54,301 bases of DNA from Schwartzia sp. (in: firmicutes) (GTDB taxonomy: Bacteria; Bacillota; Negativicutes; Selenomonadales; Selenomonadaceae): the NCBI GenBank assembly GCA_017480545.1, contig JAFVAI010000078.1, forward strand, positions 1 through 54,301, in the 5' to 3' direction. The stretch's first letter is position 1, and the number at the start of each line of letters is the position of its first letter. Both the position numbers and the translations under genes were made by a program. The notes below the pieces were generated by a model. The model saw only the letters and a program-made list of their open reading frames with translations. It made no database searches and was not told the origin of the DNA. This document shows positions 3,395-19,250 of this stretch, in pieces.

Positions 3395-4471
3395 TCACTC
3401 TTTTTCCCTGTACCAGAAAGGACGAAGGAAGCGGAGCGCGCAGGTCTCGCCCGGCTCGGGGCCGGGGTCGCGGCGGCCTTTCTGCACACGGAGCGTTTGC
3501 TCGCCGACTTGGATCTGGTAGTCGATGATCTCGCCGAGGAACGCTTTGCGGTTCACTACGCCGTGGAGACCGGCCGGGTCGTCCGAGGGGAGGAAGTCGA
3601 TTTCCGACGGGCGGCTGGCCCAGGAGACGACGCTTTCGCCCGCGAGACGCTCCGGCACACTGACGCCCGCCGGAAGCGGAACGCCGCCCGGCAACTGCGC
3701 GCTGCCGCCGTCACAGTTTACCGCAAGGAAGTTCGACAGGCCGATGAAGCTGAACACGAACTTGTTTGCTGGGTTGTTGTAGATGTTCAGCGGCGTGTCG
3801 ATTTGCTGGACGACGCCGAGCTTCATGACGAGGATGCGGTCGGACAGCGCCATCGCTTCGGACTGGTCATGCGTGACGTAGATGATCGAGAAGCCGTATT
3901 TCATTTGCAAATCCTTGATCTCGAAGCGCATTTCCTCGCGGAGGTGAGGATCGAGGGAGGAAAGCGGCTCGTCGAGGAGCATGACGTCCGGATTGATGGC
4001 GAGGGCGCGGGCGAGGGCCACGCGCTGCTTGCCGCCGCCGGAGAGGTAGTCCGGGCTCTGGTCTTTCGCCGCGACGAGGTTCGTCGCGCGCAAAGCGTCC
4101 ATCGTGCGCCGGTCGATTTCGCTCTCCGGCAGCTTCCGGATGCGGAGCGGGAACGCTACGTTCTCATAAACGGAAAGGTGAGGCCAGACGGCGAAAGCCT
4201 GGAACACCATGCCGAAATTCCGTTTCTCGGGCGGCGTGTAGTGGTTCTTTTTCGGCGAGGAAAAAAGCTGGTCGCCGACCCAGACTTCGCCGTCGGACAA
4301 ATCCTCGAAGCCCGCCACCATGCGGAGCGTCGTGGTCTTGCCGCAGCCGGAGGGGCCGAGCATCGAGAAGCACTCGCCCTTGCCGATTTCATAGTTCAGA
4401 TTGTTGACGGCGGTGACGTCGCCAAACCGTTTCGTCACGCCGATAAGACGCACAAAGCCTGCCATCGTCAC
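3395..4471 (-). CDS. ABC transporter ATP-binding protein (iron(III)/polyamine/phosphonate-type importer)
   Basis: A 358-residue ATPase of the family that powers type I importers for ferric iron, polyamines or aminoethylphosphonate. Walker A is GPSGCGKTT near residue 40, Walker B LLDEPLSSLD, with the H-loop YVTHD. The signature motif reads LSGGGKQR instead of the usual LSGGQQQR, so the conserved Gln is Gly. A C-terminal TOBE-like regulatory region follows (from about residue 245). The GTG start overlaps the permease stop (GTGA) after a good GGAG; an ATG at 4465 is the alternative. Substrate is uncertain. Confidence 0.85.
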   Translation of the reverse strand: MTMAGFVRLIGVTKRFGDVTAVNNLNYEIGKGECFSMLGPSGCGKTTTLRMVAGFEDLSDGEVWVGDQLFSSPKKNHYTPPEKRNFGMVFQAFAVWPHLSVYENVAFPLRIRKLPESEIDRRTMDALRATNLVAAKDQSPDYLSGGGKQRVALARALAINPDVMLLDEPLSSLDPHLREEMRFEIKDLQMKYGFSIIYVTHDQSEAMALSDRILVMKLGVVQQIDTPLNIYNNPANKFVFSFIGLSNFLAVNCDGGSAQLPGGVPLPAGVSVPERLAGESVVSWASRPSEIDFLPSDDPAGLHGVVNRKAFLGEIIDYQIQVGEQTLRVQKGRRDPGPEPGETCALRFLRPFWYREKE

Positions 4472-6150
4472 TCACTCTCCTTTTTCGTGAAATGGTTGAT
4501 GACCGTCTGCCCGACGATGATGATGATCAGCGCGATGGCCGCCAATGCGCAGGAGATGACGGTTTCGCCGTCCTCGTTCAGCGTGTAGATGGCGACGCCG
4601 ATGGTGCGCGTCGTCGGCGCGTAGAGCATGATCGAGACGGTCAGCTCGCGGAGCGACGGCAGGAAGATCAGGAAGAACGCCGCGAACATGCCCGGCTTCA
4701 CTAGCGGCAGCACGATGTCCTTCAGGGATTGCCACATCGTCGCGCCGCAAGCGCGAGAGGCTTCGACCAACGAATCATGCACTTGCTCGAGGGCCGCGCT
4801 GTTCGCTTTCAGCGAGAACGCCATATAGCGCGCGATGTAGGCGACGAGGATAATCCAGACCGTGTTGTAAAGGTTGATGCCGAACTGCCCGCTCCAAGCG
4901 AGGATCACGCCGAGGGCGATGACCGAGCCCGGGACGGAGAACGGCAGCATGCCGAGGAATTCGAGGATGCCTTTGCCCTTTACGTCCATCTTGACGATGA
5001 CGTAGGAAATCATGACGCCGGCGAACATGGTAATGATCGCGGCGGTCAGGCCCAGCGTGACGCTGTTGAAGATTGCGTCGCGGGTCACGTCGTACTCGAA
5101 CAGGATGAACTTGAAGTTGTCCAGCGACAGGTTTTCCGGCGAGAACGACAGGCCGTAGGTGGAAAGGCCGCCCACGAGGAAAATCACGACGGTGGGCAAG
5201 ACGATGGTGAACGCGATGTACGCGAAGCAGAAGAACATCAACGGGTACTTGAGCCCGCGAAGTTTCAGCTCCATCGGGCGAAAGCTCTTGCCGCCGATGA
5301 TCTGGTAATGGCCGGAGCCGAGAATCTTCCGTTGCAGCCAGATGATGCAGGCCGCGCTGATGACCAGCACGGTGGCGAGCACGGTGCCCGTGCGGATGGA
5401 CTCGAAAGAGCCGCCCGACTGGTGGATGCGCTCGTAAATCAGCACCGGGATGTTGTAGATGCCGTTTTCGATGCCGAGGACGGCGACGGTGCCGAAATGC
5501 GCCATGGAGTACAGCATAATCAGGAGCGCGCCGGACAAAATCGAGGGCAGCACCAACGGGATCGTGATTTTCCGCGTGATGGTGAAGAGCCCCGCGCCCG
5601 AAATGCGCGCCGATTCCTCCAGCGTCGGGTCCATGCGCTCCAACGCGCCGCAGACTTGGATGAAGACGAACGGGAAGAGATACATGACTTCGACGGCGGA
5701 AATGCCATAATAACTGTAAAGGTTGAAAATCGGGCCGTCAAAGCCGAGGTTGTCCATGAAGAAACGGTTGATGAAGCCCGCGTTCGGCGACAGCAGCATC
5801 TTCCACGCCATGGCGCCGATGAAGGACGGCAGCATGAACGGCACGAGGAACATGCTCTTCATGAACCGTTTGTGCGGCATATCCGTTCGCGTGACAAGCC
5901 ACGCGAAGAACGTGCCGACAATCGTGGAGCCGATGGTGGACATACCGGCGATGATCAGAGAGTTCATCAATGCCTTGAAAGTTTCCGGTTCTTTCAGAAT
6001 CTCGATCGCGCCGGAGAAATTGAAATGGTCCTCCACCCAGAACGCGTTGAACAGGATCAGGAGCACCGGGAACGCGACCACGACAACGAGGATGGCGATG
6101 GACAGGAACAAAATGACCTGTGCCACGCCGAAGGAGCTTTTCGTGTTCAT
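4468..6150 (-). CDS. ABC transporter permease, fused two-domain (FbpB-like)
   Basis: A 560-residue inner-membrane permease with about 12 membrane segments. It contains two tandem BPD_transp_1 domains (roughly residues 60-270 and 355-550), so a single polypeptide supplies both halves of the translocation pore. Coupling-loop sequences with conserved E-A-A...G spacing are visible (LEESARISGAG and VEASRACGAT). This architecture is typical of ferric-iron and related importers. It overlaps both ATPase genes by 4 bases, so the three genes form one translationally coupled operon. Confidence 0.87.
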   Translation of the reverse strand: MNTKSSFGVAQVILFLSIAILVVVVAFPVLLILFNAFWVEDHFNFSGAIEILKEPETFKALMNSLIIAGMSTIGSTIVGTFFAWLVTRTDMPHKRFMKSMFLVPFMLPSFIGAMAWKMLLSPNAGFINRFFMDNLGFDGPIFNLYSYYGISAVEVMYLFPFVFIQVCGALERMDPTLEESARISGAGLFTITRKITIPLVLPSILSGALLIMLYSMAHFGTVAVLGIENGIYNIPVLIYERIHQSGGSFESIRTGTVLATVLVISAACIIWLQRKILGSGHYQIIGGKSFRPMELKLRGLKYPLMFFCFAYIAFTIVLPTVVIFLVGGLSTYGLSFSPENLSLDNFKFILFEYDVTRDAIFNSVTLGLTAAIITMFAGVMISYVIVKMDVKGKGILEFLGMLPFSVPGSVIALGVILAWSGQFGINLYNTVWIILVAYIARYMAFSLKANSAALEQVHDSLVEASRACGATMWQSLKDIVLPLVKPGMFAAFFLIFLPSLRELTVSIMLYAPTTRTIGVAIYTLNEDGETVISCALAAIALIIIIVGQTVINHFTKKESE

Positions 6151-7238
6151 GCCTCAAGCACCCCCTTCAAGGCTTCCTTTTCAAACCAATGCAGGCTCAA
6201 AAACGACAGCGAACATTCATCCCCGGCATTGAACATCAAATTCTGCGCGATGGCGTGATGGGTTTCGAGGCTCGTCCGAAGGTGTGTGCCGTCAATCTCT
6301 ATCAAATAATCCATCATTGCGCCGAGGAAATTTGCGCGGCGAATCACGCCGTGCAGCCCGTCGCCGCCCCGCGCGATGCGCACATCCGACGGGCGGAAGG
6401 CCGCGACCCATTCGGTGGCGTCGCCTGCGGGCGTTTCCCAAGGCATCGGTTGGCTGCCGTTGCCGACGAGGAACGCGCCGCCGTCCCGCCGCACGTCGAT
6501 GAAGTTCGCGATGCCCATGAAGTTGAACACGAAGGGATTCACGGGCTTCTCGAAGATTTCCCAAGGCGTTCCGATTTGCTGGATCGCGCCTTCGGCGTTC
6601 ATGATGGCCACACGGTCGGAGATGGCGAGGCCGATTTCTTGGTCATGGGTGACATAGAGCACCGTGACGCCCAGCTTCTTTTGCAGTTCCTTGATCTCGA
6701 AGCGCATTTCCTCGCGCAGGTTCGCGTCGAGGTTCGACAGCGGCTCGTCAAGGAGCAGGAGCGCCGGGTCGGCGACGAGGGCGCGGGCGAGGGCGACGCG
6801 CTGCTGCTGACCTCCGGAAAGTTCCGAAGGCAGGCGTTTGTCAAGGCCGTTCATGCCGACGATGTCAATCATGCGCATCACGCGCTCATGGATCTCGTCC
6901 TTCGGCCGTTTGGCGATTTTCAAGGGGTACGCGACGTTCTCGAACACGGTCATGTGCGGCCAGACCGCGTAATCCTGAAATACCACGCCCAGCCCGCGAT
7001 TTTCCGGAGGCACGGCAATCCGCGCCTCCGGGTCGTTCACCAGCGTGTCGCCGATGTAGATTTTCCCAGCGTCGGCGGACTCAAACCCGGCGAGCAGCCG
7101 CAAGAGCACGGTTTTCCCGCAGCCGGAAGGCCCGAGCAGCGTAAAGCACTCGCCCTTTTCCAGCGTGAGCGAAAGGTTTTGAAGCACAGGATGCCCCGGA
7201 TACCCTTTGCTCACATTTTCCACACGGATAATGTCCAA
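6147..7238 (-). CDS. ABC transporter ATP-binding protein, first gene of the importer operon
   Basis: A 363-residue ATPase paralogous to the one at the operon's other end. It has Walker A GPSGCGKTVLL, a canonical LSGGQQQR signature, Walker B LLLLDEPLSNLD and H-loop YVTHD, followed by a TOBE-like C-terminal domain. The start is a TTG preceded by a spaced GGAG. Having two distinct ATPases flanking one fused permease suggests an ATPase heterodimer, or exchangeable ATPases. The binding protein is not in the operon; the best candidate is at 17897-18940. Confidence 0.85.
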   Translation of the reverse strand: MDIIRVENVSKGYPGHPVLQNLSLTLEKGECFTLLGPSGCGKTVLLRLLAGFESADAGKIYIGDTLVNDPEARIAVPPENRGLGVVFQDYAVWPHMTVFENVAYPLKIAKRPKDEIHERVMRMIDIVGMNGLDKRLPSELSGGQQQRVALARALVADPALLLLDEPLSNLDANLREEMRFEIKELQKKLGVTVLYVTHDQEIGLAISDRVAIMNAEGAIQQIGTPWEIFEKPVNPFVFNFMGIANFIDVRRDGGAFLVGNGSQPMPWETPAGDATEWVAAFRPSDVRIARGGDGLHGVIRRANFLGAMMDYLIEIDGTHLRTSLETHHAIAQNLMFNAGDECSLSFLSLHWFEKEALKGVLEA

Positions 7239-7331: not shown

Positions 7332-9122
7332 CTATATCACCATCATGGTTGTATTGAATCCCTGATAGTTGCGGAAGAAAAAAGTCTGGGCGCGGCTTCG
7401 GACGACGTACATACCCAAGGCTCTGTAGTCCACATCCTCCGCCCGCTCCGGCATGGCGGCAATCGGGCCGCCGGGGAGGCGGAAGGGGTCGAACTCCTCA
7501 GCGTCGTCCCGGAGATGGATTTCAAATGTGGGCGAGCCGGGTCCGGAGATTTTTTCGTCGGGCGTTTCCCTTGCAATCAGCGTGAGCTGCCACAGGACGT
7601 GCGCATCGGCGCGCCGGGCGGCCCGCTCGCTTACGACGCCCGAGATTTCCTCCAACGCCATGCGCAATAGGTAGCGCTTGCGCTCGTCCGCGCCCCATTT
7701 CGCCGCGAAAGATTCGATGGCGTTGAGCTGCTCCGCCACGGCTCCGATGCTGCCGTAAAAGGCGGAGGCGTACACCCGCGCCGGGTCGATGTTTTTCCGT
7801 TCGCTTCGGTATCGTTTATAGACGTAAACGATGAGAAGGGTCAAAAGCTCGGAAAGGGGGTACACTAGCCAAAAGATGCCGCTGCCGAAGCGGGAAAGGA
7901 GGTACGCCAAAGCGATTCCCACGCCCGCGCGGCGCAGGAATACGACGAGAAACGCGCCCTGCTCGTCCTCCTCGGACTGGAAATAGTTTTGCAGCAAAAG
8001 GCATACGCCCATGAAAACCGCGCCGACGCAGAAGATCCGTATCGCGTGATAGACTGCCGCCGTGTTCTCGATGCCGTCCAGCCCGAAGAGAAGCCCCGCG
8101 AGTTCCGGGCAAACGATCATGGCGGCAGTGGCGAGACCGCCCAGAGCCAGCGAATAGAGGAGGCAGTAGCGGAAAATCCGGTGCAGCTCTTTGAAGTTGC
8201 ATTCCGCGAAAAACGCGGAAAAGATAGGCTGCGCCATTTTGCCGATGAGCTCGTAGATAAAGACGAAAAGCAGGGCCAGGTTTTCGACGATGTTGAAAAT
8301 CGCGACGCCTTCCGTTCCCGAAAGCTCCGTCAGGAGATGGATGGACACGAGGGCGAAGACCGCGCCGAAGATGTACTCGAAGGAGGTCGCGAATCCGAGC
8401 CGCAGGGGCTTTATCGCCTCCGGGAAGGAAGCGGCCTGCCGCTGGACTTTGAGCGCCCCTTGCCGCCCCAGAAGATAGAGGAACCCGATCAGGAACGTCG
8501 CCGCATTCGAGGCGAGGAAGCCAAAGCTGCATCCCGCGATGCCCCAATCGAAAAAGAACAGCAGGATCGCGCTGACGATGAGATTGCCGACGCCCGCCGA
8601 CGCCTGGAGCGCGACGGCCAGCGCGTCGACGTTGTCGTTACGAAGATAGAAGGTTACCAGTTCCATGAGAATCTGAAAGGGGATTCCCAACAGGATGTAA
8701 AACATATAGCTTTTCGCCATGGCGAACACGGCGCCCTCTTCCGGCGCCGCGCCGAGAAAAGCGAGGAGCCCGTCCCCCAACAGGAGCCCCGCCGCCATGA
8801 TGCCGAAGCCGACGGCGCAGGAGAAGCGCAGGAAAAAATTGAAGATGCCGAGCGCCCGCTGCTGTTCCCCTTTGTGCATGAGGTTCGCGAAAACCACCGC
8901 GCCGCCCGTGGAGAGGCCGAAGGCAAAGAAGGAAGACAGAAGGAACAACGGGGAGACGTACCCGATGGCGGCAATCCCGTCCATGCCGATGGCGTGGCCG
9001 ACCAAGATCGTGTCCCCCATCTCCGCCAGCGCCATCCCGATGCCGGCGAAGGGAGCGGGCAGCACGGCCCGCAGGAACATTTTCCGGGTAAAATACGCGG
9101 AAAGCGACGATTCCGTTTTCAT
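7332..9122 (-). CDS. MATE-family transporter fused to an RsbW-like kinase domain
   Basis: A 596-residue fusion. Residues ~1-440 form about 12 membrane segments of the MATE/polysaccharide-flippase superfamily (drug or lipid-linked substrate/cation antiport). Residues ~455-596 are soluble and resemble the anti-sigma-factor serine kinase (GHKL ATPase) fold: an N-box region ALEEISGVV (489-497), a RDDAEEFDP segment like the G1 region, and an ALGMYVV segment like G2. The Mg-coordinating Asn expected in the N-box is Val496, so kinase activity may be lost. The start overlaps the stop of the STAS/condensation gene (ATGA), so the two are coupled. Substrate unknown. Confidence 0.8.
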   Translation of the reverse strand: MKTESSLSAYFTRKMFLRAVLPAPFAGIGMALAEMGDTILVGHAIGMDGIAAIGYVSPLFLLSSFFAFGLSTGGAVVFANLMHKGEQQRALGIFNFFLRFSCAVGFGIMAAGLLLGDGLLAFLGAAPEEGAVFAMAKSYMFYILLGIPFQILMELVTFYLRNDNVDALAVALQASAGVGNLIVSAILLFFFDWGIAGCSFGFLASNAATFLIGFLYLLGRQGALKVQRQAASFPEAIKPLRLGFATSFEYIFGAVFALVSIHLLTELSGTEGVAIFNIVENLALLFVFIYELIGKMAQPIFSAFFAECNFKELHRIFRYCLLYSLALGGLATAAMIVCPELAGLLFGLDGIENTAAVYHAIRIFCVGAVFMGVCLLLQNYFQSEEDEQGAFLVVFLRRAGVGIALAYLLSRFGSGIFWLVYPLSELLTLLIVYVYKRYRSERKNIDPARVYASAFYGSIGAVAEQLNAIESFAAKWGADERKRYLLRMALEEISGVVSERAARRADAHVLWQLTLIARETPDEKISGPGSPTFEIHLRDDAEEFDPFRLPGGPIAAMPERAEDVDYRALGMYVVRSRAQTFFFRNYQGFNTTMMVI

Positions 9123-10717
9123 GATTCCAAAAGCTCTGCCACCTGCCGCTTCTCGTCCGTCAGCGCGCCGATCATCTCATCCACTGTCCGGGCAAAGCGG
9201 CGCATGGCCTCCACGGAATAGCGGCTGGCGTCATAGTTCAGCACCAGCGAATGCGTCCCGTCCGCATGGGCGTTGCAATCGATGTCCAACGTATTTTCCG
9301 CCGCGGATCTCCCGTTCTCCGGCATCTGCACGATCTCGGCCTCCGCGCCGCCCAGCCGCGCCCCGCCGCGCCTGCTGGTGAGCCCTTTTTGCAGGATGAA
9401 GGTGGCGCAGTTGTTCTCAAGTCCTTCGTCATAGACTACATCGAGGCTCTTGATGTATTTCATGCCCTCCGCGATCCGCGCTTCCAGCCCGCGCAGGAAC
9501 GCGCCGACGGAAATCCCCTCCTCGAAATCCCAACGGATGGGAATCTGGTTCAGCATGAGGCCCAGCATCCGGTGCTCCACGGAATTCATGCGCCCGTTGT
9601 GAACCCAGCTCATGATGGATTCCTTGGCGCCCGCCGACTTCGCCATGGCCAGCATCGTTGCCGCCATGAAAAAAGTATTTTCCGTAAAATCCGCGCCCTT
9701 GAAAAAATCCTGGGGGACGACGCTTTCCAACGGCATTTCCAATTCGTTTTTCGTCCACGCCCCGACGCCCTCGACATCGGCGGGAGGCAGGTGCTTTTTC
9801 TCGTCGAATCCTTCCAGCATCTTTTGCCAGTACGTGTGCCCTTCCGCCAAGGTCGCCGGGGCGATCCTGGACTCCGCGAGGACGTACTCGGCGTAGCTTG
9901 GCGCCTTTCGCGCCGCGGCATTCCCCGCGCCCCTGACATACCGCTTGTCGAGCTCCCGCCTAAAGAGCAGCGCGGTCGCCACCCCGTCCATGATGGCATG
10001 GTAAAAGTCGGCGTAAAGATATTGCCCCGAAGCGGTCTTCATGAGATGGACGCGATAGAGCGGACGGTCGATGAGCGTGTAAGGCTCCATGAGGTCGCGC
10101 TTGCGCTTTTCGAAAGCCTCGTCCGAAAGGGTTTCCACATAGACCCGCGCCACCTCCCCGTCAAACCGCTGGCAGACCTCCCCGGTCTCGGGATGGAAAA
10201 GCAGGCGGCAGCGGAAAATGTCGTAGGTCGACAGGATGTCGTTCACCGCCTCGGCCATCCGCTCCATGTCCACGGACGGGTCAAGCCGCATCAGCGCGCC
10301 GATGTTCATCATCGTCGAGTTTGCCTTTTGGAGATGGGTATCGACCAGCCAACGCTGGATCGGGCGCAGCGGGTAATATTCCGGCGCGTTTGTTTCCTCC
10401 GTGTCCCCGTCTTTCACGATATGGAGGAGGCGACCGAGGTTCGTCATCTCGAACACGTCCATCACGTCGGCAGTCGGATTTTTGACCGTGAGCGTGCCGC
10501 CCTGTTTCTTCATTTGGTTGTTGGCCATGATCAGGGAGCGGATGCCTGCCGAGGAAAGATAGTCCAGCTTGGAAAAATCCAAGACCGCTTCCTTGGCGCC
10601 CTCAGCAGCGGCACGAAATTCCGCGTCGAAAGCCGACCCGGTGAGCTTGTCGAGCCGTCCCGCGAGGCAAAGCGTAAGTTTGTCCCCGTCCCTTGTCTTC
10701 GTGATGGTGATGTCCAT
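9119..10717 (-). CDS. STAS domain fused to an NRPS-type condensation domain
   Basis: A 532-residue fusion. Residues 1-~105 are an SpoIIAA/RsbV-like STAS domain with the phosphorylatable serine motif (LDYLSSAGIRSL, Ser55/Ser56). Residues ~113-530 are a stand-alone condensation domain: C1-like LRPIQRWLV (117-125), C2-like YDIFRCRL, the active-site motif as YHAIMDG (His240, Asp244; the first His of HHxxxDG is Tyr239), and C5-like LGLMLNQIPIR. Condensation domains join acyl or aminoacyl groups to amines or alcohols; no carrier or adenylation domain is nearby. It is co-transcribed with the MATE/kinase fusion, so the STAS and kinase-like domains are probable partners. Confidence 0.8.
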   Translation of the reverse strand: MDITITKTRDGDKLTLCLAGRLDKLTGSAFDAEFRAAAEGAKEAVLDFSKLDYLSSAGIRSLIMANNQMKKQGGTLTVKNPTADVMDVFEMTNLGRLLHIVKDGDTEETNAPEYYPLRPIQRWLVDTHLQKANSTMMNIGALMRLDPSVDMERMAEAVNDILSTYDIFRCRLLFHPETGEVCQRFDGEVARVYVETLSDEAFEKRKRDLMEPYTLIDRPLYRVHLMKTASGQYLYADFYHAIMDGVATALLFRRELDKRYVRGAGNAAARKAPSYAEYVLAESRIAPATLAEGHTYWQKMLEGFDEKKHLPPADVEGVGAWTKNELEMPLESVVPQDFFKGADFTENTFFMAATMLAMAKSAGAKESIMSWVHNGRMNSVEHRMLGLMLNQIPIRWDFEEGISVGAFLRGLEARIAEGMKYIKSLDVVYDEGLENNCATFILQKGLTSRRGGARLGGAEAEIVQMPENGRSAAENTLDIDCNAHADGTHSLVLNYDASRYSVEAMRRFARTVDEMIGALTDEKRQVAELLES

Positions 10718-10773
10718 GAATATACCTCCGTTTTGTGCTTTTCCTTAAAGTCTGTCGGTGCTATCATATATGG

Positions 10774-10779
10774 ATTATA
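10774..10779 (-). promoter_or_regulatory. probable -10 element for the STAS/MATE operon
   Basis: A perfect TATAAT on the minus strand in the context TCCTATAATCC, about 57 bases before the STAS gene start. The local sequence resembles the one before the ABC importer operon, so the two may share regulation. The -35 is weak (TGGCAT). Confidence 0.45.
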
Positions 10780-10871
10780 GGATAGTTTGCGTTGAAATGC
10801 CATAAAAATTTGCGCATCCAAAAATTTCAAAAAAATTTCTAAGGAGCAACACTTTTTGCGGCGTTATCTTG

Positions 10872-10877
10872 TATAAT
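10872..10877 (+). promoter_or_regulatory. probable -10 element for the tandem membrane-protein genes
   Basis: A perfect TATAAT about 100 bases upstream of the first polytopic gene, in a divergent intergenic region. No good -35 was found. Between it and the gene is a GC-rich leader with short inverted repeats. Confidence 0.45.
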
Positions 10878-10975
10878 GAGCAGAGGGGACTGCGGTCGCT
10901 GCGTTTGCGAAACCGTGGGCTGGAAAATCCCAAAAGAGTTTGATTATGCGTATTTATATGAAAGGCGATGACAGG

Positions 10976-12475
10976 ATGGGAAAAGCGGGAGACAGGACAG
11001 ATGGGGCGTACCGCCGGATTACGGACGCTTGGGAGCGTCTGCCTTGGCAGACGATACTGCTGACGTTCGTGGGGCTCTTTCTGCTCAGGAATCTTCTGCT
11101 TCCCATGGCGGGCGACGATTACGCCTATGCGTTCATTTGGGACCCCGAGCACGGAGGGAACCTCATGGACGACATCGGGGAGCGGATCCGCATCGCGTCC
11201 CTGTCCGATATTCTTGCCTCCCAATGGGAGCATTATTTCAGCTGGGGCGGGCGCACGATCTCCATGCTGTTCCTCCAGTTTTTCGCGTGGCAGGGAAAGA
11301 TTTGGTTCGACCTGTGCAATACCGTCGTGTATTTGTTGTTGGGGCTGGTGATTTACTGGACTGCGGCCGGGCGTGTCGCGTCGCCCGCGCGTTATAAGGG
11401 ATGCTTTTTGTGGGGGCTGCTGGGCCTGCAGTTCGGCGTTCTGGACTATATCTCGACGATGCTTTGGATGACGGGCGCTTGTGTCTATCTGTGGACCGGC
11501 TTTTGGGAATGTGCCTTTCTCCTGCCTTACGCGTTGGCGTATCGGCGGGCGGATTTTTGGAAACGGGCTTCCCGCTTGCAAGCAGTCCTGATGGCGGCAG
11601 CGGGACTCTGTGCCGGATGGTCGGAGGAGGGAGGGGGCATCGCCGCTCTTTTCCTGCTGGCGATGTTCCTGGTCTCGGCTCGCCGGGAGGGGCGGCTCCG
11701 GCCTTGGATGGTGGCGGGTGCGGGATTCTTCCTGTTGGGCTTCGCTCTGCTCCTCTTTTGCCCCGGCTCTATCATGCGGGAAAAGTTTATGCTGCAGTAC
11801 AATCCGGAGTACGTCCTGCCGATGGACAAGCTCTGGTCGGCGGAGATGTTTTGGGACAACTTCACGGAAGGCTTTCTGCCCATCTTCTTGTGGCAAAGTT
11901 TCCTGTATGTTCCCCTTCTGCTCTATTTCAAAAATTTGCGGGGATGGGACAAAACCGCGCGTCTTGTTTCGATGTTCGCGGCGGCGGGGCTTTTGGTGCT
12001 GTGCGCCATGATGTTCGCGCCGTCATTCGGGCTTCGGACGGGCTTCCACTCCACCGTGTTCTTCACAATCGCGTCGGCGATGGCCGTGCGGGAAATCGCG
12101 CCCCGCATGAAAGAACTTTGTCGCAAAGCCTTCTGGCGGAGAGCAACCGTTGCGGTTATACTGCTCTGCCTTTGCTACGGTGCGGTCACCATGGCGGAGG
12201 CGGTTTGCATCGAGGCATCCATTCGGCGGCAGTTCGACGACCGTATCCGTCTCATCCAATCAAAGCCAAAGGAGCCGCTCTTGGTGGTGCCCGCGCTCCA
12301 AGTGCCGGAGGGATGGTGGCAGATTGCGGGGCCGAGATCCATGACGGAGTTTCATCTGATCTACGGCGCCGATTTGGAGTCGAAGCCCACGGACAACCGC
12401 TCCCTGATGTTCGCCCGGTACTACGGTATCGGCCCCATCTGCATCGACAAGGAGAGGAACTGGGAAAAATTTTAA
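10976..12475 (+). CDS. polytopic membrane protein, DUF6056-like / possible GT-C glycosyltransferase
   Basis: About 499 residues with roughly 10-12 membrane segments. After the first segment comes LLLPMAGDDYAYAFIWD; an acidic pair in the first external loop is typical of GT-C fold glycosyltransferases that use lipid-linked sugars. A second conserved-looking element is YFSWGGRT. The ATG at 10976 is preferred for its upstream AAAGG; TTG 10940 and ATG 10946 or 10958 are alternatives. A close paralog follows 13 bases later. The GT-C reading is inference; the family is known to me mainly as a domain of unknown function. Confidence 0.65.
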   Translation: MGKAGDRTDGAYRRITDAWERLPWQTILLTFVGLFLLRNLLLPMAGDDYAYAFIWDPEHGGNLMDDIGERIRIASLSDILASQWEHYFSWGGRTISMLFLQFFAWQGKIWFDLCNTVVYLLLGLVIYWTAAGRVASPARYKGCFLWGLLGLQFGVLDYISTMLWMTGACVYLWTGFWECAFLLPYALAYRRADFWKRASRLQAVLMAAAGLCAGWSEEGGGIAALFLLAMFLVSARREGRLRPWMVAGAGFFLLGFALLLFCPGSIMREKFMLQYNPEYVLPMDKLWSAEMFWDNFTEGFLPIFLWQSFLYVPLLLYFKNLRGWDKTARLVSMFAAAGLLVLCAMMFAPSFGLRTGFHSTVFFTIASAMAVREIAPRMKELCRKAFWRRATVAVILLCLCYGAVTMAEAVCIEASIRRQFDDRIRLIQSKPKEPLLVVPALQVPEGWWQIAGPRSMTEFHLIYGADLESKPTDNRSLMFARYYGIGPICIDKERNWEKF

Positions 12476-12488
12476 GGGAGAGAGAAAC

Positions 12489-13976
12489 GTGACGGCTGTA
12501 TCGAAAGAAAAAACCTGTTGGGATCGCGTTCCGTGGCAGTTCATCCTGTGCGTTTTCATGGGGGTATTCCTCATTCGCAACCTGATGCTGCCCATGGTAT
12601 CGGACGATATTCCCTATGCGTTTATATGGGACGGGGCGGACAAGGGGAACCTCTTGGACGGGGTGGGGCCGAGGGTGCGCATCACCTCCTTCGGGGATAT
12701 CGTAAAAAGCCAGTGGTCCCATTACTTTACTTGGGGCGGCAGAATTTTGGGCATCGGGCTGACGCAGCTTTTCGCATGGGAAGGCAAGGCGTTGTTCAAC
12801 GTTCTGAACACGCTGGTCTTCATGGGGCTGGCCCTGCTGATATTTCGCATTGGGACAGGGGCGTCCCTCCGCTCCATGAACAAGACCTATATCCTCTGGG
12901 TTTTGATGGCATTTTGGTTTTTGTTGCCGGATCCGTTTTTGACGACGCTTTGGATGTGCGGGAGCTGCGTTTTTCTGTGGATGAGCTTGTTGGAGTTTTT
13001 GTTTTTGCTGCCCTTCGCGCTCAAATACTGGAGGCCGTCGTTTTGGGAGAAGCCTCCCGCCTGGAGCGTCCCCCTCATGGCGCTCGCCGGCATTTGCGCG
13101 GGCTGGTCTGTGGAGACGGGCGCGGCGGCCACGGGGTTCATCGCCTTTTTTGCGCTATGGCATTTTCGGAAGCAGGGATGCCTGCAGCCTTGGATGAGCG
13201 CAGGATTCTTGTTCCTCTGTCTCGGCGGCCTCATGCTGATCCAAGCCCCCGGCGAAATGGTGCGGTTGGAGCTCCAACGACAATTCGAGTACAATCCCGA
13301 GCTGCCGCCGGAGATGTACTGGACCCCCTTGATGTTTTCCATCACGTTCACCGAATGCTTTTGGCCGGTGGTGCGGATGTGGATTCCTCCGTTGCTGTTG
13401 ATACTGTATTACGTCCGACAGCTTCCCCGGGGAACGCGTTGGAATCCCGTGACGAAGTTTCAGGCGGTGTTCATCGCGGGCGCTTTGAGCGTCATGGTTG
13501 TCATGCTTTTCGTGCCGATGGCTCCGGCGAGAGCCGGTTTTTTCTCCACCGCAGCCGTCATCACGGCTTCCCTGTCGGCTCTCCGTGAACTCATGCCCAA
13601 GCGGGACATCCTCTATCGGAAGCATCGGGGACTCTTCCGTGCCGCCTTTGCTCTCTGCGCGGCCCTGTGGCTCACAACAACGGCCATCATGCTCTATGTG
13701 GAATGGGATGTGCGGACCCAGTGGATGAACCGCATCGACTACGTCAACGCCCATCAGGATCAGGATTTGGTTGTTGTCCATCAAATCGACGTTCCGCCAA
13801 TCGCCGATGTCATGGCTGTCGTTTTCCAGTCCTGTTTCACTTGGAACACGGAGATACTGGCCTGGGGCTGCGATCTGGAGCCGCGCCCCGAAGGCAGCCA
13901 TAACCTCATGTATGCGCAGTATTACGGCTGGAAAAAAGTCATCACCGACGGCGAGGATCGGCGCACAATCGAATAA
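12489..13976 (+). CDS. polytopic membrane protein, paralog of the preceding gene
   Basis: A 495-residue paralog with the same layout: soluble N-terminus, first membrane segment, then MLPMVSDDIPYAFIWDG with the acidic pair, HYFTWGGR, and about ten further membrane segments. The C-terminal ~80 residues form a soluble domain ending near YAQYYG, matched by FARYYG in its neighbour. It starts with GTG after an AGGGAGAG ribosome site. The tandem pair is one transcription unit closed by a terminator at 13989-14030. Function unknown; transfer of a sugar to a surface molecule is a reasonable inference. Confidence 0.65.
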   Translation: MTAVSKEKTCWDRVPWQFILCVFMGVFLIRNLMLPMVSDDIPYAFIWDGADKGNLLDGVGPRVRITSFGDIVKSQWSHYFTWGGRILGIGLTQLFAWEGKALFNVLNTLVFMGLALLIFRIGTGASLRSMNKTYILWVLMAFWFLLPDPFLTTLWMCGSCVFLWMSLLEFLFLLPFALKYWRPSFWEKPPAWSVPLMALAGICAGWSVETGAAATGFIAFFALWHFRKQGCLQPWMSAGFLFLCLGGLMLIQAPGEMVRLELQRQFEYNPELPPEMYWTPLMFSITFTECFWPVVRMWIPPLLLILYYVRQLPRGTRWNPVTKFQAVFIAGALSVMVVMLFVPMAPARAGFFSTAAVITASLSALRELMPKRDILYRKHRGLFRAAFALCAALWLTTTAIMLYVEWDVRTQWMNRIDYVNAHQDQDLVVVHQIDVPPIADVMAVVFQSCFTWNTEILAWGCDLEPRPEGSHNLMYAQYYGWKKVITDGEDRRTIE

Positions 13977-13988
13977 GGAAGAAAAGAA

Positions 13989-14030
13989 AGACGGCTGCGG
14001 GAATTGTATGCTTCCCGTAGCCGTCTTTTT
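13989..14030. terminator. terminator between convergent units
   Basis: A 15-bp stem (13989-14003 with 14012-14026, one G-U pair) with a short loop and flanking T/A runs. It ends the rightward tandem membrane-protein unit and can also end the leftward phosphatase transcript. Confidence 0.85.
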
Positions 14031-14055
14031 GTGTGTGCGACGCAGTTTCCCGTAT

Positions 14056-16230
14056 TCATCTTTGCCCGTTGCCGTAATAGACGAGCGCGAGCATGGTGAT
14101 GTCGTCCGACTGCTCCGCGTCGCCGACGTAGGCTTGGAGCGCTTCCTGTACCGCGCTTGTCAGCGCTCCGGCGTCCGCCGTGGGCGGCGTACTCTTCAAC
14201 GTAGCTTGCAGGCGGTTTTCCCGGAACATTTCGCCGTTTTCGTTCATCGCCTCGGTGACGCCGTCGGTGTAAAGGAAAATCGCGTCTCCGGGGGCGAGGG
14301 GAATCGTTTCCGTCGGGTATGCCTCTCCTTCCATGACGCCGAGCACCAAGCTTTTTGCCTTCGGGATAAAGGAAAAGTCGGTGCCGTGGCGGAGAAGGGG
14401 CGGATTGTGGCCCGCGTTCGCATAGTGGAATTCCCCCGTCTTGAGGTCGAGGACGCCGCAGAAGGCTGTGACGAACATTCCGGCCTGGTTGCTGTCGATG
14501 AGGGCGTCGTTCGCCTGCTCCACGGCTTCCGAGAGCTTTTCCGGATGTTTTGCCCCGATGGTGCTGTCTTTCAGCAGGGTTTTCGCGATGACCATGAAGA
14601 GCGCCGCGGGAATTCCGTTGCCGGAAACGTCGGCCACCGTCACCGCGAGATGGTCCTCGTCGAGGAAATAGAAATCGTAAAAGTCGCCGCCGACATCCTT
14701 GGCGGGGTGCATCGCCGCGCTCAGCGAAAATTCCTGCTGACGCGGGAAGTCTTTCGGCAGCATGCCCTCCTGAATGTTTCGCGCGAGATCCAGCTCCGTC
14801 TTGATGTGTTCCTTTTCGGCGGCGGTGCGCGCCATATTTTCCATGTACGTCGAAAGCTCGCCCGTCATTTTGTTGAAGCCCTCGGCCAAGAGCTCGATCT
14901 CGTCGCCCGTCTTGACATCGATTTTGTGTTCCAGATGGCCCGCCGAAATCTCCCGCACACCGTCGGTCAGCGTGAGGATGGGCTTCGTGATGCGCTCCGC
15001 CAGCTTTCTGCCGACAAGCAAAAGAAGCGGTGCGGCAATGAGCAGGGAAAACGCGGCGTTTCGCTTGGCGTTCCCGAAAATATCCTGAAGCGTCGCCCGA
15101 AAACCGGCCATGGCGGCGAATACATTTTCCCGCGCCTCGATGGCGGGAGCCGCGACCACATCCAGCTTGATCAGCGTTCCGAAGCTCCAGCCGGTGGACT
15201 TCATCGGGGCATAAGCCAGGTAATACATCTCCCCGTCCACGGACACGGGCGCGACGCCGCTTTCTCCCGCCGTCATGCGTCGCGCCGCGTCCGCAAGCGT
15301 CTCCTCGCCCGCCTCGCGGATATCGACGAGGGCGGGGGTTGCCGCCAGGACGCCGGAGGATTGGGACGAAAACACCACGTCGCCGCCGCTGTCGAGAACG
15401 AAATTGGTTCTCGAATTGTCATCCAAAGCGTCGGCAATCTGGCGGTAAATTTCCTCCACGGGAAAGCCTATGCCCACGACGCCCGCGAATTCTTCCCCGT
15501 CAAAATACGGGGCGACGCAATCGATATTCTGGGAACCGTCGATGCCCAGATACGGCGCGGAGTAGACCGCGTCTTTCGCTTGCGCCCCTTTTTTGTACCA
15601 CGCGCGCTCCCTGGGGTCGAAGCCGGAAAGCATCTCGGCCCGTGCCTCTCCGTCCGGCAGCACGTGCCCCTCTCCGTCCGGAGTGATGTCCAGGCAAAGC
15701 ATATATCCTTCGCGGGATGCCGCGTAAAAATACGTCCTGTACCCCGCGTAGGATTTGCTCATCAATACCAATGTATCGACGAAATTCGACACGATCCCGA
15801 GTTCTTCCGCCATGCCGTCGATGTCCGTCGCCGAGAGCTCCTGGCTGTAATGGATATAGGGCATCCCGGAAAGGAGGCTTGCGTTGTCCCGTGTGCTGGG
15901 GAGTGCGCGGGGAAGACGATGTTCCGGCGCGGACAAAAGCTTCGTCATCCGGTCCGCCATATAGTCCACGTCTTCGCCGAAGATGGCAATTTCACGGTCG
16001 ATGTGCCGGGCTTTGAGGGCGGCGGATTCCCGCAGGCGTTCCTTGGCGTTCCGCTCGGAGAGGCGTCCCACGGACTCCGCGACACTGTCCCCGAGGGCAG
16101 ATTCATGGCGGACAAGCGAATCTCTTATGTCCGCCACCGAGTAAAGGAAAATCGCGCCCGCCAAAAGGAAAATCAGCAGGGAGGCAAACAACCCCCAAAG
16201 CAGCACACGGTTCTTGATGTTCAATTTCAC
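14056..16230 (-). CDS. membrane sensor PP2C (SpoIIE/RsbU-type) phosphatase with dCache and HAMP
   Basis: A 724-residue sensor phosphatase. It has an N-terminal membrane segment (about 10-32), a large extracytoplasmic dCache-like domain (about 45-350), a second membrane segment (SLLIAAPLLLLVG), a HAMP linker, a short coiled coil and a C-terminal SpoIIE domain. Metal-binding motifs are intact: DVGGDFYDF, VADVSGNG, and FLYTDGVTEA. Such enzymes remove phosphate from the serine of STAS antagonists. GTG 16230 is preferred because GGAG lies 8 bases upstream; an in-frame TTG at 16257 has no good site. A likely substrate is the STAS/condensation fusion at 9119-10717. Confidence 0.9.
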   Translation of the reverse strand: MKLNIKNRVLLWGLFASLLIFLLAGAIFLYSVADIRDSLVRHESALGDSVAESVGRLSERNAKERLRESAALKARHIDREIAIFGEDVDYMADRMTKLLSAPEHRLPRALPSTRDNASLLSGMPYIHYSQELSATDIDGMAEELGIVSNFVDTLVLMSKSYAGYRTYFYAASREGYMLCLDITPDGEGHVLPDGEARAEMLSGFDPRERAWYKKGAQAKDAVYSAPYLGIDGSQNIDCVAPYFDGEEFAGVVGIGFPVEEIYRQIADALDDNSRTNFVLDSGGDVVFSSQSSGVLAATPALVDIREAGEETLADAARRMTAGESGVAPVSVDGEMYYLAYAPMKSTGWSFGTLIKLDVVAAPAIEARENVFAAMAGFRATLQDIFGNAKRNAAFSLLIAAPLLLLVGRKLAERITKPILTLTDGVREISAGHLEHKIDVKTGDEIELLAEGFNKMTGELSTYMENMARTAAEKEHIKTELDLARNIQEGMLPKDFPRQQEFSLSAAMHPAKDVGGDFYDFYFLDEDHLAVTVADVSGNGIPAALFMVIAKTLLKDSTIGAKHPEKLSEAVEQANDALIDSNQAGMFVTAFCGVLDLKTGEFHYANAGHNPPLLRHGTDFSFIPKAKSLVLGVMEGEAYPTETIPLAPGDAIFLYTDGVTEAMNENGEMFRENRLQATLKSTPPTADAGALTSAVQEALQAYVGDAEQSDDITMLALVYYGNGQR

Positions 16231-16289
16231 AAGGTTCACTCCATCCGGTCGGTGCAATTTCCCTGGGCTTTTTGTTTTGCTGCGGGAAA

Positions 16290-17657
16290 TCAGAAGAAGA
16301 AGTTCAGTTCGGTGAAGAACATGCTGGCGTCGTCGTCCTGTCCGGCGGCCTTGTTGATCTTGTCCTTGCCGATGAAATACTTGAAAGACGCCGAGAAGTT
16401 CTTCATCGGGATCATCTCAAAGCCAATCTCGACGCCCTTCTGTCCGGCACTGATGGCATCATAGGTCGGCGCCCAGACGGCTTCCTGGCCGAGGCTGCGG
16501 TAGGCGACGAACGCGCCCCACGAGCCCTTGTCCGCAGGGTCGGCGCCCTTGTAGTCGAGCTGGACCGTCCAGGCGCGCTTGGAGTCCTGGCCGGTCTCGT
16601 CGGTGTCCTTCGCCGAAGTGTTCCAAGCATAAGCGCCGTTCAGGTTGAAGTTCTTCCCAAACTGCCAACCAAGGCCGACATCCCAAAGGTTCATGGCTTC
16701 CTTGTCATTGCCGGCATACAACTCACGAAGGACAGCCTTGTTTGCAAAATGATGGTAGCCGACGCCCCAATTGATTTTGTCCTCGGAGTTGTTGTAAATC
16801 TCAATGCCCTGATAGCTGGCGGTTGCACCGGTGTATGCCGTTGCGGGGTCGTCTGGATTCGTTTGCCGAGGCCACCCCGGGCGGCCCACCGCTTCGGCGC
16901 TTGCGCGGCCAACGGTAATCGTTCCTTTGATCTTGCTGCCGACCGTAATCTGGCCGCCGGCCACATTGTCATCGAACAGCATACCGTTGTCACTGTTGCT
17001 CATATAGGGCAGCTTGCCGAGCAGGAGCTGGAAGTTCTTGTAGTCGCCCTGCACCCAGACGTGCTCCATGACGAACTCATCGTCGGCGTCATTCTCCGCA
17101 ATCTTGCCGTTGGACGCGTTTTTCGCGCTGTTCATGTCCGTGCTGTAGTCGAGGCGGGCATGGGCGGTCCAGTTCTTGTTGATGGCTATTTCCGGTTCGA
17201 GGCGAAGCGTCACATACTGGGCGTTGGTCTGAATGGGTTTGTTTTCGGCCGGATTGGAGTGCAGACGTACATTGGCGTAGCGATAACGCACCGCGCCGGT
17301 CCACTTCACGTTGTCCACTTTTTTCTCGAGCGCGGCAACGCGGACGCCGAGGCTCTGCAGTTCGTCGGCGAACTCGGCCGCCAGCTTGTCGAGCAGCGCC
17401 TTGTCCGCGCCGTTGCCGCCTTTCGCCATGGCGCGGGCAATCATCTGCGCCATCTCGTAGCGGGTGATTTCCTGGCCGCCGCGATAGGTGCCGTCGCCGT
17501 AGCCCTCAATCACGCCATCCGCAGCGAGCTGAGCAATGGCGTCGTATGCCCAATGGGCGGCAGGAACATCCTCGAACGGATTCGCCGCGGCGAACGCCGC
17601 CTGCGCTGCGCCCACGACGAGAGCCGTCGCCAGCGCGGAAACAAGAGATTTCTTCAT
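16290..17657 (-). CDS. SLH-domain outer-membrane porin, OmpM-like
   Basis: A 455-residue outer-membrane protein. A signal peptide (1-~23, ending AAFA) is followed by one SLH domain (about 25-80: NPFEDVPAAHWAYDAI, GYGDGTYRGG, ITRYEMAQMIARAM). Then come a short coiled coil (LGVRVAALEKKVD) and a beta-barrel ending in Phe, the usual BAM recognition signal. In Negativicutes these porins tether the outer membrane through SLH binding to polyamine-modified peptidoglycan and allow solute diffusion. A GGGAGG site precedes ATG 17657; upstream in-frame codons lack one. It has its own promoter (17752-17780). Confidence 0.93.
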   Translation of the reverse strand: MKKSLVSALATALVVGAAQAAFAAANPFEDVPAAHWAYDAIAQLAADGVIEGYGDGTYRGGQEITRYEMAQMIARAMAKGGNGADKALLDKLAAEFADELQSLGVRVAALEKKVDNVKWTGAVRYRYANVRLHSNPAENKPIQTNAQYVTLRLEPEIAINKNWTAHARLDYSTDMNSAKNASNGKIAENDADDEFVMEHVWVQGDYKNFQLLLGKLPYMSNSDNGMLFDDNVAGGQITVGSKIKGTITVGRASAEAVGRPGWPRQTNPDDPATAYTGATASYQGIEIYNNSEDKINWGVGYHHFANKAVLRELYAGNDKEAMNLWDVGLGWQFGKNFNLNGAYAWNTSAKDTDETGQDSKRAWTVQLDYKGADPADKGSWGAFVAYRSLGQEAVWAPTYDAISAGQKGVEIGFEMIPMKNFSASFKYFIGKDKINKAAGQDDDASMFFTELNFFF

Positions 17658-17751
17658 GCAAAACGCCTCCCGCAAATACAATACTCGCCCCATCGTCCGC
17701 GACGCCGCTTCTTTCCCGGCGCGCCCGTCTCCGGCAGATGCTATGCGCATT

Positions 17752-17780
17752 ATGATAGCACAGATTCCCGCACAGGGCAA
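17752..17780 (-). promoter_or_regulatory. sigma-70-type promoter of the OmpM-like porin
   Basis: On the minus strand: TTGCCC (17780-17775), 17-bp spacer, TATCAT (17757-17752). It lies about 95 bases upstream of the porin start and after the terminator of the neighbouring binding-protein gene, so the porin is transcribed independently. Confidence 0.7.
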
Positions 17781-17852
17781 TTTGCGCGGCTTGTATACAT
17801 AGAAGGAACAGGAAAGAAAAGCGGGCGGCGTTGATGCAGGAGCATTTCGGAT

Positions 17853-17883
17853 AAAAAAGGCGGAACGCTGTTCGCGTTCCGCC
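17853..17883 (-). terminator. terminator of the binding-protein gene
   Basis: Minus strand: 10-bp perfect stem (17874-17883 with 17859-17868), 5-nt loop, then six T (17853-17858). It lies directly after the stop of the substrate-binding lipoprotein. Confidence 0.88.
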
Positions 17884-17896
17884 ACTTTTTTATCGC

Positions 17897-18940
17897 TTAC
17901 TTCTTGATGATCTCCGTGAACTTCTTGATCGTTTCTTCCTTCTTCGGGAGAATCTCCGTGTAGCTGACCTTGATGCCGTTCTTCAGGGCGGCTTCCGGCT
18001 GCGGGAGATTGTACTTCTCGGGAATCTTGACATCCTTGCGGACGGGGACGGTGCCGGCTTCGGCGACCTTCTGCTGGGCTTCCTGGCTGAGCAGGTAATC
18101 GACGAATTTCTTCGCGGCTTCGACGTTGTTCGAGCCTTTGAAGATCGCCACCGGGCTCGGAACCATCAGGAGTTCCGGTGGATACGCCATCTTCAGGTGC
18201 GCGCCCTTCGCAATCTTGCTGTTGGTGATGTAGTCGACGCCGAGGCAGGCGACGAGCTCGCCGGAGGAGGTGTCGTCAACGACCTGGCCGGAGCCTTTGC
18301 CGATGCGCGCGCCGTTGTCATGCAGCTTGTTGAAATAATCCCAGCCGAACTGCTTCTCAAGGAGCGCGACGCTCATGTAGGACGTGCCGGAGAGCGCCGG
18401 GTCGGCAATGCCGAAGCCCTTGTTGTATTCCGGCTTCAGGAGGTCGGACCACTGGGCCGGGGCCGTTTTGATCTTGTCCGTGTTGTAGACGATGCCGAGG
18501 GTGCCGAGGCGGGCCGCCGTGAAGCTGCCGTCATAATCGTCGAACGGGTTCAGGAGCTCGTTGAAAATCGGGGTCTTGTAAACTTCCAGCATATTCTGGG
18601 CCTTCATCTGATAGAAGTCCGGAACCTCGCTGGTCCAGATGACATCGGCGAGGATATGGCCGCTCTGTTTCTCGGCGGCGATTTTCGCCATCAGCTTGCC
18701 CGCGCCGGCGGACTGATAATCGACCTCGATGCCGGGGTTCTTCTTCTTGAAGCCTTCGACGATGCCGCTGATCAGCGCCTCCTTCATCGAAGTGTAAATC
18801 ACGAGTTTGTTTTTCGCGCCCGCCGCGCCGGAGCCGGAACCCGACGACTGGGGCTTCGGGCCGCCGCCGCAGCCGGCGACGAGGGCCGTCGTCAGTGCCA
18901 CGCACAGAACCATGAATAACGCGAGTGCTCTTTTCTTCAT
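17897..18940 (-). CDS. ABC transporter substrate-binding lipoprotein (ferric iron/AEP family)
   Basis: A 347-residue exported lipoprotein: n-region MKKR, hydrophobic core, lipobox LVAGC, then a Gly/Ser-rich linker. The mature part is a family 1 periplasmic binding fold with LVIYTSMKEALISGIV at its start and ADVIWTSEVPDFYQ further on. This family captures ferric iron, thiamine or aminoethylphosphonate. It sits about 10.6 kb from the matching ATPase/permease operon at 3395-7238, transcribed in the same direction. ATG 18940 has AAGGAG eight bases upstream; a GTG three codons earlier is possible. Ligand not determinable. Confidence 0.85.
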   Translation of the reverse strand: MKKRALALFMVLCVALTTALVAGCGGGPKPQSSGSGSGAAGAKNKLVIYTSMKEALISGIVEGFKKKNPGIEVDYQSAGAGKLMAKIAAEKQSGHILADVIWTSEVPDFYQMKAQNMLEVYKTPIFNELLNPFDDYDGSFTAARLGTLGIVYNTDKIKTAPAQWSDLLKPEYNKGFGIADPALSGTSYMSVALLEKQFGWDYFNKLHDNGARIGKGSGQVVDDTSSGELVACLGVDYITNSKIAKGAHLKMAYPPELLMVPSPVAIFKGSNNVEAAKKFVDYLLSQEAQQKVAEAGTVPVRKDVKIPEKYNLPQPEAALKNGIKVSYTEILPKKEETIKKFTEIIKK

Positions 18941-19250
18941 ACATTCCACTCCTTATTTAATGAAATCATTTGCGGGAAACGCGCTCCGCACGCGCTCCGA
19001 AGAAGCCGGAAATTTGCGCGGCTTCTCACGGTTCGGAAACGCCGCCTCCCTTCCCTTGCCCGAAAAACGCGGCGGATCGCCGCCCGTCTTGTCAGACAAT
19101 TCGTACTTGCCTTAATTATAATGCGAACGGCGGTGGATTGCAATGAAATTTTTCCGCGCGAAATTTTTCGGGCAAAGAGGAAATTTTGTCGGCGTGGCGA
19201 ATATTTTTCATAATAATATTCAAAAACGGCGGCACAGTGTGGAGGACAGT
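18941..19250. other. divergent intergenic region
   Basis: About 310 bases between the leftward binding-protein gene and the rightward glycosyltransferase gene. An AT-rich box at 19112-19122 contains TATAAT on both strands (plus 19117-19122) and could give -10 elements either way, but no well-spaced -35 was found. No gene seen. Confidence 0.4.

Follow-up and report, generated by a model that had tools for sequence, protein, structure and literature searches.

A sigma-free partner-switching module that may join an NRPS-type condensation enzyme to a MATE exporter in rumen Negativicutes

Partner switching is a well-understood bacterial control circuit, the known outputs of which are mostly sigma factors, together with a few second-messenger enzymes. 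In the stretch of DNA analysed here (contig JAFVAI010000078.1 of Schwartzia sp. assembly GCA_017480545.1, 54,301 nt, hereafter called the window), one half of such a switch sits on a peptide-forming enzyme and the other on its exporter. A STAS domain is fused to a condensation domain of the nonribosomal peptide synthetase (NRPS) type (STAS-C), the product of the adjoining gene is a MATE exporter that bears an RsbW-like domain at its C-terminus, and a dCache-HAMP-SpoIIE sensor phosphatase is encoded 3.3 kb upstream of STAS-C (Table 1). We read this locus, with confidence that is about evenly balanced, as a sigma-free partner-switching module rewired to join a biosynthetic enzyme with an exporter. 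According to this docking model, the extracellular Cache domain would sense a ligand and activate the SpoIIE phosphatase, which would take the phosphate off Ser56 of STAS-C, and a separate RsbW kinase would re-phosphorylate this residue. The unphosphorylated STAS domain would bind the RsbW-like domain of the MATE protein, a receptor devoid of the Asn for Mg-ATP. Docking would bring the condensation enzyme, and the NRPS where present, to the inner mouth of the exporter, and the product would be made and exported only during the signal.

The association of these parts is a conserved one. In a scan of named genomes, relatives were detected at 61 loci, nearly all of them from rumen Negativicutes and including those of the isolates Schwartzia succinivorans DSM 10502, Selenomonas ruminantium ATCC 12561 and Succiniclasticum ruminis DSM 9236. 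Using a profile of the fusion, the full-length protein was found in 35 of 380 Negativicutes genomes distributed over nine genera and two families, and one Quinella-like genus mainly contains the condensation part alone. The neighbourhoods of 40 distinct fusion genes were examined, 38 of which are followed by enough downstream sequence. A MATE gene lies downstream of STAS-C in all 38, either at once or with an NRPS gene in between (in one of them truncated by the contig end), and the contigs of the other two loci end within the NRPS region. Three layouts can be distinguished. Type 1, to which the window belongs (n = 24), has the order SpoIIE - (STAS) - STAS-C - (NRPS A-T-C) - MATE with RsbW-like domain. 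SpoIIE is located at most 5 kb upstream in 22 of these 24 loci, its end lying, in those other than the window that possess it, between 41 nt inside and 833 nt before STAS-C, and some of them carry STAS or STAS and RsbW genes in between. In type 2, the MATE is more distant and its gene shares 4 nt with STAS-C, an overlap identical in 14/14 loci, and an AcrB-type RND pump and a pair of DUF6056 genes adjoin most of these operons. In type 3 (Quinella-like), the condensation domain occurs without STAS, accompanied in several loci by a MATE with shortened C-terminal domain and in many by a PotABCD-like polyamine transporter. The conserved grouping of STAS-C, MATE and SpoIIE is more than chance, and the original prediction, a short note made on this DNA from its letters alone, was not refuted by a lack of co-occurrence in relatives, which it had named as a ground for refutation.

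The fusion of a STAS domain with intact Ser motif to a condensation domain, as claimed in that note, was confirmed by Pfam, with STAS_2/STAS matching at residues 8-101 (E 6e-13 / 8e-10) and Condensation matching over the range given in Table 1 (E 5e-41). The switch Ser is invariant in 27/27 aligned homologues, and so are His, Asp and Gly of the condensation motif YHxxxDG. In the window protein this motif reads YHAIMDG, in which the second, catalytic His and the DG are kept and the first His is replaced by Tyr; all 27 homologues share this Tyr, with motif variants such as YHATVDG and YHVIMDG. The AlphaFold (AF2) model of STAS-C (mean pLDDT 81) matches NRPS condensation domains, and in a condensation-domain tree the STAS-C fusions all fall into one group (94/99). 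Plasmid records contained no relative spanning most of the protein.

In the MATE protein, Pfam detects MatE in two stretches (E 7e-21), and fold comparison of the transporter part of its AF2 model (mean pLDDT 85 for the protein) gives Z 41 with PfMATE, Z 33 with the flippase WzxE and Z 22.9 with ClbM. Because the matches obtained by Foldseek and VIA-align with the whole model cover the transporter part alone, the relation of the C-terminal domain to RsbW is based on hhalign, Pfam and the order of secondary-structure elements. Comparison with the genuine RsbW of these bacteria by hhalign yields 92.7% at E 4e-7. HATPase_c_2 matches residues 462-594 at E 0.008, below the Pfam cut-off, and exceeds the cut-off in the homologue from S. 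ruminantium (L070, E 4e-7). The order in the AF2 model is beta-alpha-alpha-beta-beta-alpha-beta-beta, and no relative of this domain emerged from the PDB by sequence-profile search. In the family of RsbW-type kinases, the Asn of the N-box holds Mg-ATP. This Asn is present in 26/26 stand-alone RsbW proteins vs 0/22 window-type MATE domains, in which Val, Leu, Ile, Phe or a gap takes its place. Among the 14 type-2 MATE domains, His is found at this position in 11. Since the N-box Asn is lost, the MATE domain is here termed an RsbW-like dock instead of a kinase, and this RsbW homologue probably acts as a dock. Hence, of the RsbW-like kinase domain proposed by the original prediction, the RsbW homology holds and the kinase assignment is not supported.

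For 22 type-1 pairs, dock and STAS distances were compared by partial rank correlation with condensation and transporter distances removed, resulting in a coefficient of 0.35-0.36 (0/1000 permutations, jackknife 0.25-0.42). With columns matched for rate, dock vs condensation-domain distances gave -0.13 and transporter vs STAS distances -0.01, and unmatched columns gave the same picture. The distances thus tie the dock to the STAS part specifically, which is indirect evidence, short of proof, of a STAS-dock contact. These data also bear on the view that the RsbW-like and STAS domains are non-switching relics or assembly glue, the genes being kept together for the synthesis and export of one product. 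In the MATE domain, the N-box loss and a G2 box that is weak would fit such a view, as would the Quinella-type loci devoid of STAS, yet it is hard to reconcile with a Ser56 invariant in every aligned homologue, with intact motifs in the window phosphatase, with a SpoIIE gene conserved upstream and with STAS and dock distances that track each other. We therefore regard it as highly unlikely.

Several observations weigh against the docking model. The loss of the N-box Asn predicts, without proving, that kinase activity is lost, and three of the 14 type-2 MATE domains retain this Asn. In type 2 the dock/STAS signal is weaker (partial 0.25, 31/1000). Permutation, as applied to the dock/STAS distances, removes phylogeny incompletely. 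The window genome, 82% complete, yielded no stand-alone RsbW. Furthermore, MATE and condensation enzyme of the Quinella type persist without any STAS.

As for the phosphatase, Pfam confirmed the predicted architecture, assigning dCache_1, HAMP and SpoIIE (the latter with E 2e-50) to the window protein, in which the motifs DVSGNG, TDGVTEA and DDITML of the phosphatase are all intact; its best NCBIfam match is SiaA, far below the cut-off. TTG at 16257 and GTG at 16230 are the candidate start codons of the gene. The module in the window contains no RsbW-type kinase with an N-box Asn, the MATE domain carrying Val496. Operons of Succiniclasticum (L022, L023, L025 and L028) continue with genes for STAS, for genuine RsbW and for another SpoIIE; a locus of the Selenomonadaceae (L142) has STAS and RsbW between SpoIIE and STAS-C, and the genome of a sister species (G006) encodes RsbW beside a STAS gene, away from the operon. 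A separate RsbW is probably the kinase for STAS-C. These operon-borne RsbW genes in Succiniclasticum and L142 would suit a switch of enzyme activity, in which RsbW or the MATE domain holds and inhibits the condensation enzyme via STAS and the MATE domain is secondary, and STAS control of diguanylate cyclases, as with SiaC-SiaD, offers a precedent (PMC8457831). Most operons, however, lack a stand-alone RsbW, yet every one with enough sequence includes the MATE, and this alternative is accordingly rather improbable.

The window contig gave no Sigma70_r2 match, so the absence of a sigma factor at the locus, already stated in the original prediction, stands, and a sigma factor was rejected as target. 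A conventional switch in which STAS-C or SpoIIE acts for a sigma factor from another part of the genome could draw on the five sigma-70 family genes in the remainder of the genome and on the canonical SpoIIE/STAS/RsbW modules found elsewhere in the same genus. With a contig devoid of a sigma gene, a SpoIIE nearly always close to STAS-C and an RsbW-like domain carried by the MATE itself, we consider its chances very remote.

Related combinations occur at further loci (Table 1). In one group, from the same taxonomic class, STAS is joined to an APH-type phosphotransferase, and a MATE with RsbW-like domain is encoded adjacent to the fusion or not far from it. The N-box Asn of the MATE is kept in those aligned (L158, L166, L015), and a GT2-GH3 fusion or NRPS genes are found nearby in most of the loci; this group seems to repeat the design with a different enzyme. 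In a second group, SpoIIE/STAS/RsbW genes are located beside or near a protein of about 617 aa that combines a condensation domain with a cyclic-nucleotide-binding-like part (a weak cyclic-nucleotide match). Partner-switch parts and biosynthetic enzymes have thus been joined repeatedly in these bacteria. It is tentatively suggested that a general class exists in Negativicutes, in which MATE-type exporters with an RsbW-like receptor would recruit interchangeable STAS-fused enzymes. For these enzymes, an NRPS condensation domain or an APH-type phosphotransferase, sensor phosphatases and RsbW kinases would determine the phosphorylation of STAS, an extension that is likewise offered as tentative.

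The same loci help to judge whether the switch merely gates export. In that case, binding of STAS would open or close the MATE, the condensation domain being co-regulated or reporting ongoing synthesis, and no enzyme-exporter complex would be formed for the sake of synthesis. Partner-switch folds on transporters are indeed known from SulP/SLC26 proteins with STAS (PMC8256260), and MATEs of the Quinella type keep a shortened RsbW-like domain even though no STAS fusion accompanies them. On the other hand, signal-gated export leaves unexplained why in all 40 loci it is the enzyme itself that bears the fused STAS, and why a STAS-phosphotransferase is found beside a MATE-RsbW-like fusion in others. 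It is a real but minor possibility.

Compared with known systems, the module combines familiar parts in a different way. Sigma-free outputs of STAS switches have been described in the form of diguanylate cyclases controlled via SiaC-SiaD, HsbA-HsbD and BgrV-BgrR (PMC8457831), and SypA represents a further non-canonical STAS-switch case (PMC8256260). In SiaABCD of Pseudomonas, SiaA is the phosphatase, SiaB the kinase, SiaC the STAS-like protein and SiaD the diguanylate cyclase (PMC8457831). The window module resembles these three systems in its SpoIIE-type HAMP phosphatase and in that control through phosphorylation of a STAS(-like) domain would fall on an enzyme instead of a sigma factor (PMC8457831), but differs from them in that STAS is fused to an NRPS-type condensation enzyme and the RsbW-like partner to an exporter. 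With RsbU/RsbV/RsbW and SpoIIE/SpoIIAA/SpoIIAB it shares a STAS domain with switch Ser, an RsbW homologue and a PPM phosphatase; unlike them, the unit has no sigma factor, its MATE-borne RsbW-like domain lacks the N-box Asn, and synthesis and export are the likely output. SulP/SLC26 transporters with C-terminal STAS also bear a partner-switch fold (PMC8256260), but there STAS is part of the transporter, while in the window the transporter bears the RsbW-like half and STAS belongs to the enzyme. A MATE fold beside NRPS genes, as seen in relatives, recalls ClbM of the colibactin pathway, and VibH is likewise a stand-alone condensation domain, its structure 1l5a matching the profile at E 9e-5. 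To our knowledge, neither the NRPS-linked MATE exporters of the ClbM type nor VibH possess STAS or RsbW-like domains. In the open-access literature, neither a STAS domain fused to an NRPS domain nor a switch MATE with RsbW-like domain was found, and the available part of a rumen gene-cluster survey does not mention the STAS-C/MATE combination. As far as this literature goes, sigma-free partner switching of a peptide enzyme and its exporter has thus no prior description. If docking is real, it would mean post-translational control of secondary metabolism by on-demand assembly of enzyme and exporter, as well as reuse of the RsbW-like fold as a transporter receptor. For genome mining, a STAS-enzyme fusion beside a MATE with RsbW-like domain can serve as a mark of unknown small molecules in rumen bacteria, and the targets are testable in cultured rumen isolates.

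Table 1. Positions of the features in the window and of related loci
Feature	Position	Strand	Size or residues	Remarks
STAS-Condensation fusion (STAS-C)	9119-10717	-	532 aa	Pfam
STAS domain	10394-10717	-	residues 1-108	
Switch Ser56	10550-10552	-		in LSSAGIRSL
Condensation domain	9152-10378	-	residues 114-522	
Catalytic His240	9998-10000	-		
MATE exporter with C-terminal RsbW-like domain	7332-9122	-	596 aa	Pfam
Transporter part of MATE	7788-9122	-	residues 1-445	
RsbW-like C-terminal domain	7335-7787	-	residues 446-596	
Val496	7635-7637	-		N-box position
STAS-C/MATE gene overlap	9119-9122	-	4 nt	ATGA
dCache-HAMP-SpoIIE sensor phosphatase	14056-16257	-	733 aa	Pfam, synteny
DUF6056 protein a, polytopic	10940-12475	+		Pfam, E 3e-96; divergent, between SpoIIE and STAS-C
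DUF6056 protein b, polytopic	12489-13976	+		Pfam, E 2e-106
Promoter-like site	10774-10803	-		ATGGCA-18-TATAAT, 10/12; just upstream of STAS-C start
STAS-phosphotransferase loci	L158:4850-7806, L166:7232-10203, L167:6561-9511, L168:6629-9591, L177:7260-10235, L015:1-4214			
Loci of the ~617-aa condensation protein	L017:3145-9569, L151:6106-8798, L152:6453-11402, L154:4401-14747, L155:6434-11346			

Regarding the product, most type-1 loci contain a one-module NRPS (A-T-C, about 1210 aa) within the operon. The relatives' enzymes have retained the Asp of the amino-acid-binding pocket and the carrier Ser, together with a nearly invariant A4/A5 signature (FDGS, NEYGPTE), and on these grounds they probably activate one amino acid; their terminal condensation domain reads LHPIIDG. 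The acylated product assumed in the original prediction found no support, the operons of relatives encoding an A-T-C NRPS. The operons of the window, L012 and L141 contain no NRPS gene, and none is present on the window contig; in the close relative L140 the NRPS is located past the DUF6056 pair, and the complete sister genome G006 yielded no A-T-C NRPS. Moreover, no carrier-protein (PP-binding) domain was found in the 82% of the window genome covered by the assembly. In the window lineage, with no NRPS found alongside, the enzyme would have to use a carrier encoded elsewhere. The only AMP-binding protein of the window genome (a 520 aa frame) is not tied to the system because equivalents occur in genus members without the operon. 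In the Quinella-like loci, a polyamine could be the acceptor, by analogy with VibH.

Stand-alone condensation genes, sometimes in tandem, occur beside a spermidine/putrescine-like ABC transporter in L041 (8658-16375), with similar arrangements in the Quinella-like loci L043, L044, L048-L051, L055, L058-L060, L075 and L076. The operon or its core was also seen in a Fretibacterium metagenome-assembled genome (MAG) of the Synergistota (L027) and in a Lachnospiraceae MAG (L063); on such contigs, horizontal transfer and misbinning are indistinguishable.

The two polytopic DUF6056 proteins between SpoIIE and STAS-C, which according to the original prediction may supply or glycosylate the substrate, are doubtful members of the unit: by synteny, the pair is found near STAS-C also in L140 and most type-2 loci, and most window-type operons are without it. 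In L140 (13347-14849), DUF6056b is split over two frames, by a break or a sequencing error. The pair accompanied by an AcrB-type RND pump was seen by the type-2 operons of L035 (1052-7143), L037-L039, L074, L131-L133, L135 and L145-L147. The ATGA overlap of the STAS-C and MATE genes is consistent with translational coupling. Promoter-like sites across the region are present in a number at chance level, that in Table 1 being supported by its position alone.

Models of anti-phage defence gave no match. Genes of a 2-aminoethylphosphonate/iron-type ABC transporter lie on both sides of the operon (3395-7238 and 17897-18949), those for ATPase and permease on one side and that for the binding protein on the other. 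In L021, too, the operon is flanked by this binding protein (95%) and this ATPase (94%), and these shared flanks suggest insertion of the operon as a cassette. An SLH-domain porin gene adjoins SpoIIE (16290-17885), a relative of which (84%) sits after the MATE gene in L140.

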